From a virus: a stretch of 26,216 nucleotides of DNA. The notes beneath the pieces are model-generated. The model was not told the origin of the DNA. It searched no databases and saw only the letters and a list, made by a program, of their open reading frames with translations. Below, piece after piece: positions 17,487-22,968 of the stretch (its first letter is position 1; each line of letters opens with the position of its first letter). The stretch spans positions 1-26,216 of the IMG/VR virus record IMGVR_UViG_3300013286_000049; one strand, 5' to 3'. The translations under genes were made by a program, and so were the position numbers.

Positions 17487-17784
17487 CAGCTAGCGCAGGC
17501 CAACATCGTGCGCTCTAGACCTGGATCCAGGATCACAGGGACGGAACCTTGCCGGCTCAGCAAGTACTCAACCACTATCCTTGACAGGACGCTGATGGCA
17601 AAATCCTTGCTGTTTGGTTGTTTGAATATATTCTCAAGGAAAAAGAGGGTAACCAACCCACGGCGCAGTGTGCGACAATATGCTCACTGTGTCCCGCCGT
17701 CGTGATCAAGACTGAGCTCGAAGTACCGGATGACCGCTTCTGTAATGCTTTAATATTGTGTGACATGTTCAACTCAGATAATGT

Positions 17785-17927: not shown

Positions 17928-19172
17928 ATGAAAGTGCATGAAATAATCTCATTGAATGAAACTATAGCTGGAGCAATAAGCGGTGCCATGGGCTCAGTGG
18001 CCAAGGGCATTGAACGAGTCAAGAATCCTTCCAAACTGTTCAAGACAGCTGAAAGCACTCTCAAAGACAAAGTGGCTGATGAAATTGCCACTATTGCCAG
18101 CAGTGACAACATATCATATGCCGAGGCGGCAGCCAAATACATTACCAAGCACAAGGTGGATGTGGACACCCAAGTGGCGCGACTTCGAACCACACGGGAC
18201 TATCGTGACATGCCTGAGGATCAATTGCGCAAAGTTGCCATGGACTTGAGGGGCATTGACCCTAAACAACTGGATCCTGCATTTGTGAACAGCGCATTGG
18301 GACGCACACAGCGCGGCGCACTGATCAAGGCAGTGGGCATGGCGGATGTGTCAGCGTGGAGGTTTGCTGGCAATGCAGTGAAACTGGGACTGAACGGCTA
18401 CGGATTTTATATTGGATTCATGGAGCCGTGGAATCAGTTTTCCAAAACCATGAACGGCTATGGTGAACAACTGAGAGCTGGCAAGCTTCAAGGAGGCGAA
18501 GCACAATATAATTTTTTAATGAATCAAGAACTGACTGTGCTGCTGGCTGCATGGGGCACTCAGTTGGCAGCTGGCGCCTTCCTCAAGGGCGTGGCCAATA
18601 AACTCTCGCCTGGTGAGAAAAAGATGGGCTTTTTACTGCGCAAAGAAAACCCCAAATTTGATCTAGTGACAGCTGCGGGTTTGCAGGTGGTTAGAACTTG
18701 GCTAAACAATGGCGAAAATACGAGTGCATTGGCTGGTCTTCTGTTGACTGACATTTTGGGACGAGAACAACCCATTGCACAATACATAGGGCAGTTGGTG
18801 GCGCCCATGCTGAGTGTGATTAGATCATTCACCGGTCCATCTGTGCTGGGCGTAAATGTGCCAGCCGCCAGTGGTGCTGATGCAAAAAATGACAAATCAA
18901 CAGTTACACCTGTAGCTCAAGGTGCTGGCAGTGGCACTAGTGCGGCAAAACCAGCCAGCGGCAATGCCCAAGTGGATGCTACCAGTCCGGCCGCACCTGC
19001 TGGTCAGTCCAACGGCGCCCCCATTACAGCCAGTGACTATCACTATCGTTGGGCCGCTGATCCTGACATACGAAATTGGGTGCAAGACCCAGTACACTCG
19101 GATAGATTGTTGGATCCCAACTCTGGCAATGACATTGCAAAACCACCTGGTTGGAAACCTGCCAAGAAATAA
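17928..19172 (+). CDS. Unknown 414-aa protein, probable virion or late protein
   Basis: I do not recognise the family. The N-terminus MKVHEIISLNETIAGAISGA has the MKxxEI opening I have seen on several virion-associated proteins of environmental phages. Lys-rich helical segments and YAEAAAKYITKHKVDVD follow. A mid-region has small-residue, weakly hydrophobic helices (LTVLLAAWGTQLAAGAFLKG, about 205-224; GLLLTDILG about 270) that could contact membrane. From about 310 to 365 it is a low-complexity Ala/Ser/Gly/Pro linker. The C-terminus has YHYRWAADPDIRNWVQDPVH and ends in lysines. A linker plus terminal module and a late-type box point to a structural or ejected protein, but this is inference. 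Its stop abuts the stop of the convergent gp51-position gene with no spacer. Confidence 0.75.
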   Translation: MKVHEIISLNETIAGAISGAMGSVAKGIERVKNPSKLFKTAESTLKDKVADEIATIASSDNISYAEAAAKYITKHKVDVDTQVARLRTTRDYRDMPEDQLRKVAMDLRGIDPKQLDPAFVNSALGRTQRGALIKAVGMADVSAWRFAGNAVKLGLNGYGFYIGFMEPWNQFSKTMNGYGEQLRAGKLQGGEAQYNFLMNQELTVLLAAWGTQLAAGAFLKGVANKLSPGEKKMGFLLRKENPKFDLVTAAGLQVVRTWLNNGENTSALAGLLLTDILGREQPIAQYIGQLVAPMLSVIRSFTGPSVLGVNVPAASGADAKNDKSTVTPVAQGAGSGTSAAKPASGNAQVDATSPAAPAGQSNGAPITASDYHYRWAADPDIRNWVQDPVHSDRLLDPNSGNDIAKPPGWKPAKK

Positions 19173-19466
19173 TCACAGTAAAGGCAGTCCTGTGACTTTC
19201 ACAGTCTCAAGATTTTCCTTTATGATGTTGTAGATCATTTCTCTGTCTTCATGGCTGTAGTTGTACAGCAAATCGTTGACTGATATGCCACCTCGCATGT
19301 ACCACGAAATTCTAAACAGCTCTTCTTTGAATGATTTTGTTTCACTTTCCAGCCTAACCAGTTTTTCTTCAATGACCTCTGAGGTCAAACCAATTAGGCT
19401 ACCCCGAAAAAATTTGACTGATCCAGTTCTACACGCAGTTGAGATTCGTGTTGGCAGTTGGTGCAC
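19173..19466 (-). CDS. gp51-position ORF, likely made as a -1 frameshift extension of gp26
   Basis: This frame overlaps the 3' end of gp26 by 73 nt in the -1 frame. The protein-like part starts only after the overlap: FFRGSLIGLTSEVIEEKLVR, ETKSFKEELFRISWYMRGGI, NDLLYNYSHEDREMIYNIIK, ENLETVKVTGLPLL. Before that the reading (HQLPTRISTACRTGS) looks like a by-product of the gp26 zinc-motif codons. A slippery A-AAT-TTT at 19415-19409 would join the frames, giving a 349-aa gp26 fusion (271 + 78 residues). A separate start (GTG at 19466 or a TTG inside) is possible but has poor signals. In T4 gene 51 (hub assembly catalyst) follows 26, so position suggests that role. It could equally be viewed as the second half of a tail-assembly chaperone. 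Confidence 0.7.
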   Translation of the reverse strand: MHQLPTRISTACRTGSVKFFRGSLIGLTSEVIEEKLVRLESETKSFKEELFRISWYMRGGISVNDLLYNYSHEDREMIYNIIKENLETVKVTGLPLL

Positions 19467-20221
19467 TGAACCTTAAATGCGGGTACACGCCATAGCTCTC
19501 GATTTTTTTCTATATGATTCGAAATGGCATCAAACACAGTTTTTTCGCAGTTGTGCATCCATTCCTGTATGAAACTTTTTTCTGTAACAGTTTGGGTGCC
19601 AATCTCCACACTTTCCACGCTGGCCACATAGATGTCATTGCGCACCTGCGCCAGATCTCTAAACAGCACATTTATGATATTTTGTTTTTCCGTGTCGTTG
19701 GTAACAGCATCCACTTGACTCATTTGCTGTTGCAGTTGGAAATTTTTGAGATTGGCCTGGGTGCTTTCTTTGTATGTCAAAGGTCTAAGATTGATAACCA
19801 TGTCGTGCAACACAATTTTGTTGTTGTATGTCATTTTTTTAAAATGATCTATCACGGTACCTAAATCCACTTCATATTCATTTTCTGTATTACATGCCGG
19901 GCAGGCATTGTCCAAGCTCATCTTGTTGCCAAATGTGGCCACACGCATGGCGGTGAAAATCAGCGTGGTGTCCAATATGCTGAGATCCCATGCGTCCTTG
20001 ATAGCACTGCAACAGCTTTGAATCACTTTGACTGAACTTTCTCCGCTCAGCAATGCATCTGGAGTTTTCAGTATGATCTCGTCCATGCCTGTCATGGCAC
20101 ACACGGGTATGCTGGTCACATCACCCTGTATGGTGCCCGGCTTGTTGTACACGCCCTGGCTGGGCAAGCTGATAAAGATCTTGGGCTGTCTAAAATACTG
20201 TTGAAGGGGATTTTGTGGCAT
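19394..20221 (-). CDS. gp26: Baseplate hub assembly protein gp26 (T4 baseplate protein family)
   Basis: The 275-aa product begins MPQNPLQQYFRQPKIFISLP and matches the gp26-type family: PVCAMTGMDEIILKTPDALL, SGESSVKVIQSCCSAIKDAW, and two CxxC pairs, CPAC (107-110) and CTNC (253-256), likely a split zinc site. The C-terminal half has LRPLTYKESTQANLKNFQLQ and SFIQEWMHNCEKTVFDAISN. T4 gp26 (208 aa) is needed for hub assembly. A late promoter (20251-20258) gives a 24-nt leader with GGAG 6 nt before the ATG. The gene ends NFFGVA, immediately after a slippery sequence, and the -1 frame continues with conserved-looking protein. With the tape-measure candidate next door this resembles a G/G-T chaperone arrangement. 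Confidence 0.85.
   Translation of the reverse strand: MPQNPLQQYFRQPKIFISLPSQGVYNKPGTIQGDVTSIPVCAMTGMDEIILKTPDALLSGESSVKVIQSCCSAIKDAWDLSILDTTLIFTAMRVATFGNKMSLDNACPACNTENEYEVDLGTVIDHFKKMTYNNKIVLHDMVINLRPLTYKESTQANLKNFQLQQQMSQVDAVTNDTEKQNIINVLFRDLAQVRNDIYVASVESVEIGTQTVTEKSFIQEWMHNCEKTVFDAISNHIEKNRELWRVPAFKVQCTNCQHESQLRVELDQSNFFGVA
19409..19415 (-). promoter_or_regulatory. Candidate -1 frameshift heptamer A-AAT-TTT
   Basis: In the gp26 frame the codons are TCA AAT TTT TTC GGG. The heptamer A AAT TTT fits the X-XXY-YYZ rule for simultaneous -1 slippage, entering the frame AAA TTT TTT CGG GGT. It lies 12 nt before the gp26 stop. Downstream, GGGGT/ACCTC can pair (with one G-U), and TGACCTC-A-GAGGTCA (19387-19373) is a perfect inverted repeat 21 nt after the heptamer; either could help slippage. 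Confidence 0.6.
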
Positions 20222-20232
20222 TACTATCTCCA

Positions 20233-20240
20233 GATAAATA
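20233..20240 (+). promoter_or_regulatory. Late promoter of the tape-measure candidate (GATAAATA)
   Basis: The box reads GATAAATATC, 7 of 8 matches to TATAAATA. The predicted start is at 20246, giving a 38-nt leader before the ATG at 20284 with a weak CGGA ribosome site. It faces the minus-strand box at 20251-20258. Confidence 0.65.
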
Positions 20241-20250
20241 TCACGTGCAG

Positions 20251-20258
20251 TATTTATA
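20251..20258 (-). promoter_or_regulatory. Late promoter of gp26 (TATAAATA, perfect)
   Basis: On the minus strand the sequence is TATAAATAC, an exact match to the T4 late consensus. The predicted start is at 20245, one base from the plus-strand start predicted for the opposite promoter. GGAG at 20231-20228 precedes the gp26 ATG. Confidence 0.8.
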
Positions 20259-20283
20259 TACGCACATTCTAACGGAATTTTTT

Positions 20284-22968
20284 ATGGCAGATCAGTCAAT
20301 TATAGATGCAATCACTGAAGGTTTCAGGCAGGTAATGAAATTGACCGGCGGTAATAGTGTTGGCTCGGGCAATGCAACGGGCGGAAACAGCAAGCCTTTC
20401 CAAGACAGCGGCGCTATCGATAAATTAATGAAGGCAGCGGACAATACAGGACAAGCTCTTGGACCGCTGTATTTTGGATTTATAAAACTAACAACGGGTG
20501 TGGACGCTACCACTACTGCCCTGACTGGCATGAAAGACTTTGCCTCCAAGTTTCCTGTATTGGGGGGCATGACGGGACAAGCTATCGAAGCCTTAGTCAA
20601 GTCAAGAGATGATCTCAACAAGGCCATGTCCGAGGCAGGAGTAGGCAACAATGATCTTGGTAGATTTATCAGAATGAGCGGCGAGGCGGGTTTGACCACA
20701 AAAGAATTTGCAGACTTTGCAAAAACTGGTGGACAAGCAATAGCAGGACTTAGCAGCAGTGCCAACAAAAATGCAGAAGCATTCAGCAAAGTACAAAAAG
20801 AACTGATAAACAATCCCGCTGGACAAGAGCTAATGAGGGCTGGGGTCGGAGCCAAAGAACTAGCAGAATACACAGCACTCAGTGTTGCCATGGGAAGAAA
20901 TAGGGATGTCAGTACTCAAAGAGGACAACAACAGTTGGCAACTAGTGTTGCCCTGCTTGGTAGAGAAATAGATAACACAGCTAGAATGACAGGACAGAGC
21001 AGAGAAGAAATAGCCAAAGATCTCAAAGCCCGTGCTCAGTCAGCTGACGGCATAATGTCGATGCAGGATCTTGATGAAGAGCAGCAGGAAAACATGAAAG
21101 AATTCAATGCCTCTGCTAGCAAACTGGGTCCAGCCATGCAGGATCTTTTGCAAGAAAATCTTACCAAGGGTGCTGTGACCAGTGAAAAAGGCAGGGCTCT
21201 TTTGACCATGTATGGTACTGCGGGAGAAGAGTTGCTTCAGGCACAACAAGCAGCGTTGAATGCAAGAACTCCTGCAGATAAAGCCGCAGCTCAAGCGCAA
21301 CTTGACAAAGCACAGGCTGATGTGATGGCATTTCAAGCCAGTAGAGACTTTGCTAAGAACTACAAAAGCATGACCGACGATCAACGAGCCGTTGTTGGAC
21401 CAACCATTGTGGCACAAAATGCCTTTGCGCAGAATCTCAAAAAGGCTGCCCAAGAAACTGGTAGCTATGAGGCCGGCATGGCCAAGATGAAAGATGAAGC
21501 TAGCAAAGGTAGACTTGGACTGAAAGAAGATGGCACACGCGACGAAGGTCAAGAATTGAATAGAGGCTTGAATGAAGCCAACATTAGAAGCACTATAAGC
21601 ATGGGTGCATTGGCTGGCAAAGTGGAAGAAGTCAATCTAGCATTTGGAAAAAGTCCAGAAGCCATTAATGCATTTAACAAAGCATTGGGATATGTAGGAG
21701 CTGCGAATGAAAATATGGAGGGCAGGAAGCAAAGTTTCAACAAGACTCCTGAAAAAGTTACTAGTATAGTATCTAACATGCTTACTGGTACAGACACACC
21801 ACCCACAGCAAGCCCAAGCAACGATAAAAATATGCAAAAGACTCCTGAGGGTAGATACAAGCCAGCACCCAAAAAAGAAGACGGCGGTGTAGTACCTGGC
21901 ACTGACAGCGGCACCACTATCACCGTTGGAGAAAAAGGCAAACCAGAAGCAATATTGCCTCTGGACAAACTGCAAACCATGATGGGCGGCATCACTACTC
22001 AAATCAGTTCCGCCACTACACCAGCTGGCGGTTCATCTGTGAGTGCCTTGGACAACAAGCAATACTTAGAACAATGGAAAAAGAATTACGAAGAACAAAC
22101 TGTAGTGATGATTGGCACAGAAAAGCAGCAGGCCCAACAGGATATACAGTATGCTCAAGAAAGAATCAATTCCAAATCCGCAAAAATAAAAGAGTTGGAA
22201 GATATCAAGGCCACTAGAGAGCTGACCGAGGACGAACAAAGGCAGTTGAGATTGTCTCAAAGAGGCAAAGCCAGAGCTGAACAGAATCTAGCCAGCGATC
22301 AAGCTAGATTGTCTGTGCTTGAACTTATTGACAAAAGCGGACTGGCCAATCAGGCCAACATGGCGGAAAAGTTTATTGCAGGACAAGCTGACACCAAAGA
22401 AGCACAGGAAACAGCTATGAAACTGACAACCGAAGGAGCTTCTGAAATACTTAAAATTAACGGCAAAATAATGGATCCATCTGGACCTGAAGCTAAGGAA
22501 GTCATGGCCAAAATGTCAGTATCTAAGGCTGAGATTGATAAAGTCATGGCAGACACCATGGGCATTAAAGCCAGTGCTCCTTCGGACAGCAAAGCCAGTG
22601 TCACCGCAACAGGAGGACTGGGTGGCTATGACATGTTCAATCCAGTGATCAAGGATCAGCAGGCCGCAGACGAACAAAAAGCTAAGAGGGCTGCTCAAAA
22701 AGCTGATTTGGTCAAGAAAGAAGCCGCAGAGAAAAGTGATGCTGACGCATTTGATCGCTTGACTGTAAAACCCAAAACCGAAAACAAACAGGCAGAGTCT
22801 ACTGCCAGCCCTGCTCGCGCGGCAGAAACCACTCTAAAAGATCTCAATGACCAGCTGATTGCCTTAAATAAACAAATGGTACAACTAATAAATCACAATG
22901 CAGAAATCGTGGATCACACCAAGACTTCCGCTAGAAAAGAACCAGCTGGCTACCGAAAGGGACTTTAA
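20284..22968 (+). CDS. Tape-measure protein candidate (894 aa)
   Basis: The product begins MADQSIIDAITEGFRQVMKL. It is largely helical, Ala/Lys/Gln-rich, with few aromatics. Around residues 533-560 stands GGVVPGTDSGTTITVGEKGK then PEAILPLDKL. This is close to the G-G-x-V-x-G...VGE-x-G-PEA-x-x-PL signature near the C-terminal part of many tail tape-measure proteins. A coiled coil follows at about 600-685 (KQQAQQDIQYAQERINSKSA, then KIKELEDIKA). Before residue 120 there are small-residue hydrophobic segments. In T4 the tape measure is gp29 (590 aa); this would be a longer counterpart. Chaperone-like gp26 lies divergently next door, which supports the call. The ATG at 20284 is chosen over a TTG at 20215 that would read through both late promoters. 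The gp20 ATG follows its stop directly. Confidence 0.68.
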   Translation: MADQSIIDAITEGFRQVMKLTGGNSVGSGNATGGNSKPFQDSGAIDKLMKAADNTGQALGPLYFGFIKLTTGVDATTTALTGMKDFASKFPVLGGMTGQAIEALVKSRDDLNKAMSEAGVGNNDLGRFIRMSGEAGLTTKEFADFAKTGGQAIAGLSSSANKNAEAFSKVQKELINNPAGQELMRAGVGAKELAEYTALSVAMGRNRDVSTQRGQQQLATSVALLGREIDNTARMTGQSREEIAKDLKARAQSADGIMSMQDLDEEQQENMKEFNASASKLGPAMQDLLQENLTKGAVTSEKGRALLTMYGTAGEELLQAQQAALNARTPADKAAAQAQLDKAQADVMAFQASRDFAKNYKSMTDDQRAVVGPTIVAQNAFAQNLKKAAQETGSYEAGMAKMKDEASKGRLGLKEDGTRDEGQELNRGLNEANIRSTISMGALAGKVEEVNLAFGKSPEAINAFNKALGYVGAANENMEGRKQSFNKTPEKVTSIVSNMLTGTDTPPTASPSNDKNMQKTPEGRYKPAPKKEDGGVVPGTDSGTTITVGEKGKPEAILPLDKLQTMMGGITTQISSATTPAGGSSVSALDNKQYLEQWKKNYEEQTVVMIGTEKQQAQQDIQYAQERINSKSAKIKELEDIKATRELTEDEQRQLRLSQRGKARAEQNLASDQARLSVLELIDKSGLANQANMAEKFIAGQADTKEAQETAMKLTTEGASEILKINGKIMDPSGPEAKEVMAKMSVSKAEIDKVMADTMGIKASAPSDSKASVTATGGLGGYDMFNPVIKDQQAADEQKAKRAAQKADLVKKEAAEKSDADAFDRLTVKPKTENKQAESTASPARAAETTLKDLNDQLIALNKQMVQLINHNAEIVDHTKTSARKEPAGYRKGL

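Follow-up and report, generated by a model that had tools for sequence, protein, structure and literature searches.

The DNA analysed here, called the window, is a stretch of 26,216 nt from a virus (positions 1 to 26,216 of IMG/VR record IMGVR_UViG_3300013286_000049). A gp26-like gene on its minus strand ends in a region where the -1 frame is open and continues beyond the stop codon, which raises the question of whether this frame is a gene of its own or is joined to gp26 by ribosomes that change frame. Our analysis favors the second answer, and we place the probability that a -1 programmed ribosomal frameshift yields two forms of a tail assembly chaperone at roughly 93%.

The gp26-like gene and its surroundings

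19394..20221, minus strand: gp26-like gene, short form TAC-N, 275 aa (PF12322, phrog_150, GGAG before the ATG)
20215..22968, plus strand: divergent neighbour, probable tape-measure protein, 917 aa counted from a GTG, an ATG at 20284 being the likelier start (position, RaK2 annotation)

The gp26-like protein matches PF12322 (T4_baseplate; 1.3e-13, 51.6 bits against a cut-off of 24.5) and phrog_150 (5.4e-19), and its ATG is preceded by GGAG, 6 nt to the 5′ side. A fold search of its model against the PDB returned no match with E <= 0.001, and a DNA-level search among phage records returned none. On the minus strand, the gene closes with TCA AAT TTT TTC GGG GTA GCC TAA, giving a protein that ends in NFFGVA before the TAA at 19396-19394.

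Several observations concern the surrounding DNA. The T4-type late promoter element TATAAATA is found at 20251-20258 on the minus strand, about 30 nt upstream of the gp26 ATG; this is its single occurrence in the window, where about one would be expected by chance. At the other end, the open -1 frame terminates at 19173 against a convergent 414-aa ORF (17928-19172, plus strand), stop codon against stop codon. A strong Rfam match to the Polynucleobacter-1 RNA (RF01718; 104 bits, gathering score 37) sits between two phage ORFs at 17488-17623 on the plus strand.

The 917-aa divergent neighbour is probably the tape-measure protein: the annotation of its RaK2 counterpart records similarity to a tape measure protein, and its opposite-strand relatives adjoin gp26 in 48 loci. 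Family searches with this protein (Pfam, PHROG) gave no match, and comparison with GAP32 was weak.

The slippery heptamer and the stem that follows it

19406..19412, minus strand: conserved slippery heptamer T_TTT_TTC (invariant in 52 of 52 relatives below 95% identity)
19409..19415, minus strand: A_AAT_TTT, overlapping T_TTT_TTC (in 16 of 52 relatives)
19387..19400, minus strand: 5′ arm of the putative stimulatory stem (folding z in 44 relatives; pairing and covariation in 38)
19351..19364, minus strand: 3′ arm of the same stem (folding z in 44 relatives; RNAalifold; covariation)

The initial annotation had proposed a -1 shift at A_AAT_TTT, which is indeed present near the end of gp26 (19415-19409), and had suggested aligning the 26/51 overlap across related phages. 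Viral contigs supplied 71 relatives, of which 70 reach the slippery site; adding the window and seven annotated jumbo phages brings the set to 78 genes, falling into 52 clusters below 95% identity and 23 below 60%. This alignment revealed a conserved slippery site in a conserved phase, in the form of T_TTT_TTC: a T precedes TTT TTC in 52/52 clusters and the run is six T long in every one, while the codon ahead of TTT TTC varies (AAT, AGT, ACT, CAT, GAT, CGT, TAT). A_AAT_TTT, kept in just 16/52, was ruled out as the functional heptamer. The proposed -1 shift and its NFF-RGS junction stand, with the site moved to T_TTT_TTC; slippage on either heptamer would give the identical junction, SNFF-RGS.

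Codon usage further strengthens this observation. Elsewhere in the aligned gp26-like genes phenylalanine is encoded by TTT 415 times and by TTC 100 times, and, with Met and Trp set aside, no near-invariant residue column besides TTT TTC is restricted to one codon. By our own arithmetic, the chance that 23 lineages, which are not fully independent, would agree at 0.156 per lineage is about 3e-19. Because TTTTTTC occurs 15 times in the window, the heptamer by itself is not rare, and it is therefore its conservation that constitutes the evidence. The site conforms to the X_XXY_YYZ pattern of -1 frameshifting, in the correct phase, in 52/52 clusters.

The pairing downstream of the site, which had been put forward as a candidate stimulator, takes the form of a covarying stem that opens 5-6 nt 3′ of T_TTT_TTC. 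Folds of 50 nt from +5 have a mean z of -3.54 across 44 relatives, against approximately zero at +40 to +120. Among 38 aligned relatives, a 14-pair stem (columns 13-26 with 49-62) is paired in 89.1% of cells, a value that applies to this set only, its members having been picked after folding; slid versions of the stem reach at most 55%. Six pairs are altered on both sides, in 42 cells compared with a shuffled mean of 18.5 (0/500), and RNAalifold recovers ten of the 14 pairs from the same alignment. That alignment leaves out six divergent relatives that do not carry this particular stem (L054, L062, L064, L066, L068, L071). In the 38 relatives the covarying stem, starting at +5/+6, thus lies within the 5-9 nt downstream where a stimulatory structure is sought, while stems in other phage groups are varied (z from about -5 to 0). 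Cyanophages and HTVC008M (L081, L087, L094, L088) carry GAGGG-type sequences 10-15 nt 5′ of the heptamer, which are possibly Shine-Dalgarno-like stimulators; the window has no such sequence upstream of its heptamer.

Reading of the -1 frame extension

19173..19406, minus strand: -1 frame extension (TAC-C), 77 codons plus TGA (open frame in relatives, pN/pS, helical model)

The extension begins at CGG (19406) and ends with TGA at 19175-19173, so that TAC-N plus the extension would make TAC-NC, a protein of 349 aa, in agreement with the fusion of about this size that had been predicted. Of 44 metagenomic clusters, 43 have an extension of 77 codons and the remaining one ends with its contig; the alignment of the extension has a mean column identity of 68% with R1, K27, W35, M37, R38, G39, and N65 invariant. 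Sequence conservation of the -1 frame starts exactly at the heptamer, and at the slippery site the substitutions pass from the phase of frame 0 to that of frame -1. The pN/pS of the extension is 0.27 in the -1 frame (129 pairs), while the other frames give 1.0 and 1.5; protein-level selection on the extension is restricted to the -1 frame. The predicted structure is helical (pLDDT 90). Searched alone, the extension had no match among named families (Pfam, PHROG), and the window extension without its N part had none in profile comparison with cyanophage extensions.

The initial annotation had also regarded the -1 frame ahead of the heptamer as a by-product and the extension as lacking a good start, and the relatives bear out both points. 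In many of them a -1 stop lies directly 5′ of FFR / TTT TTT, and in 34/52 no ATG, GTG, or TTG occurs in the -1 frame before extension codon 12. The earliest conserved -1 frame ATG is codon 36, which falls within SWYMRGG; given this and the upstream -1 stops, no start would therefore give the whole domain. A downstream ORF with an independent start was ruled out by these start positions and upstream stops. What the sequence comparison across relatives establishes is the conserved site, the stem, and a coding extension that has no start of its own.

From this arrangement we infer slippage itself, as well as its efficiency, along the following lines. Most ribosomes would terminate at the TAA (19396-19394) and release the 275-aa gp26-like TAC-N, while some, aided by the stem 5-6 nt downstream, would slip back one base on T_TTT_TTC and translate 77 further codons to yield TAC-NC. 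Listing of T4 gp26 and gp51 as hub assembly chaperones (PMC3004832) and the binding of the tape-measure protein by lambda gpG and gpGT (PMC5009743) provide the functional context in which we infer that TAC-N and TAC-NC would be chaperones of the tape-measure protein. By analogy with gpG/gpGT, the N part may coat that protein and the C part may recruit the tail tube protein. The tail-chaperone reading of gp26 and gp26-51 given in the initial annotation gains strong support from the cross-phage comparison.

The same fusion protein could also arise by transcriptional slippage, with RNA polymerase adding a U in the T6 run to produce mixed mRNAs. The six-T run, and the eight T of HTVC008M, would suit such a process; however, the phase NNT TTT TTC is invariant although polymerase slippage needs no fixed phase, the run stays at six T in all 52 clusters, and the covarying stem stands at a distance typical of ribosomal frameshifting, which together make this explanation improbable. 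Least probable is an independent gene 51 with its own start or translational coupling, as cyanophage annotations have it: short ORFs are annotated at the extension position in S-RSM4 (g51), HTVC008M, P-SSM5, and PBECO4, and in the window's -1 frame codon -20 is a GTG and codon 36 an ATG, but start positions are not conserved, Shine-Dalgarno-like sequences are sporadic, and codon 36 splits the conserved SWYMRGG while conservation starts right at the heptamer.

Distribution among phages and comparison with known systems

The gp26 3′ end and open -1 frame were found alike in RaK2, Atu_ph07, XaC1, PBECO4, Phosso, Vibrio 2.275, and Cassandra, and also in GAP32 and SCTP-2, as well as in RAS14 and XacN1 with T_TTT_TTT. 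The same arrangement occurs in S-BM1, S-RSM4, P-SSM5, S-RIM14, SRB7757, YB07, VS1, EniLVp02, and AdhaM_G2, and in HTVC008M with T_TTT_TTT in its longer run. It thereby spans RaK2-, 121Q-, and GAP32-type jumbo phages, cyanophages, a pelagiphage, and KVP40-like vibriophages. T_TTT_TTC or T_TTT_TTT is present in 21 of the 22 annotated T4-like phages examined, the exception being Vibrio phage D509, whose gp26 (L093, 1339-2079) is followed by an open -1 frame with CTT TTC replacing the T6 heptamer. Annotations mostly omit the extension or call a short ORF there (gp51 in cyanophages). The analysis corrects these annotations: where gp51 is missing or entered as a short ORF, as in most T4-like phages examined, the real product would be a gp26 fusion. 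It also supplies a clear frameshift signal for a large group of jumbo phages.

Both T4 gp26 and gp51 match PF12322, and gp51 consists of a PF12322 half (3.9e-52) and a C-terminal phrog_634 half, to which the S-BM1 -1 extension matches at 1.8e-30. Fusion profiles match end to end across the junction, the window family against the jumbo set at 2.9e-75 and against the cyanophage set at 1.8e-15, and the cyanophage set profile matches T4 gp51 likewise at 1.6e-10. TAC-NC is thus co-linear with T4 gp51 in two steps, with the cyanophage set as bridge; when the window family profile was compared directly with T4 gp26 and gp51 as single sequences, neither match convinced. The proposed link to 26/51 holds in that gp51 contains both the gp26-like half and the extension, but T4 itself has no frameshift, its genes 26 and 51 being separate and divergent. 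Since gp51 is a gp26-like half plus the extension, T4 has, judged from sequence, two whole genes, one short and one long, whereas window-type phages have one gene and a predicted shift. We consider it an evenly balanced proposition that the T_TTT_TTC shift is the ancestral route to the long chaperone throughout the T4-like phages, many jumbo phages among them. On this view the covarying stem would be lineage-specific and so far undescribed, the separate 26 and 51 of T4 coliphages would be derived, and the cyanophage gp51 entries would be truncated frameshift products.

Vladimirov, Gautam, and Davidson (2022, Virology 566:9-15) reportedly identified the T4-like tail assembly chaperone genes, with frameshifting said to be retained in several T4-like groups and 26 and 51 separate in T4. 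The initial annotation knew of no description for the T4 26/51 pair, a view that does not hold: PMC12846349 and PMC10885494 attribute the naming of T4-like chaperone genes to Vladimirov et al. 2022. PMC12846349 cites poly-T runs as -1 slippery sites in the TAC-N genes of T4-like phages, and PMC10885494 cites separate short and fused chaperone genes in some of them; in 2016, T4 was still the listed exception (PMC5009743). Our search of the open-text literature found no tail-chaperone frameshift in jumbo phages. In principle, frameshifting in T4-like tail chaperones has been known since 2022, and the window phage is a well-supported further case, sharing with those chaperones a gp26-family short form and a long form made of a gp26-like half and a C-terminal half.

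Other systems resemble the window in arrangement. In lambda, the slippery heptamer of gpG/gpGT is G_GGA_AAG, other than that of the window, and the tape-measure candidate of the window phage is divergent, unlike that of lambda; homology to lambda was sought in sequence and fold, with no lambda-type Pfam match and, as above, no PDB match for the gp26 model. P2 E/E+E′ is a tail gene pair with a -1 shift at the T6 heptamer T_TTT_TTG, and in this arrangement it resembles the predicted pair of the window. The TAC locus of the Vandenendeviridae phage Adele has a conserved GTTTTT motif and a -1 extension of over 200 bp (PMC12846349); as in the window, a poly-T motif goes with a -1 extension, and the likeness, to a phage of another family, is again one of arrangement.
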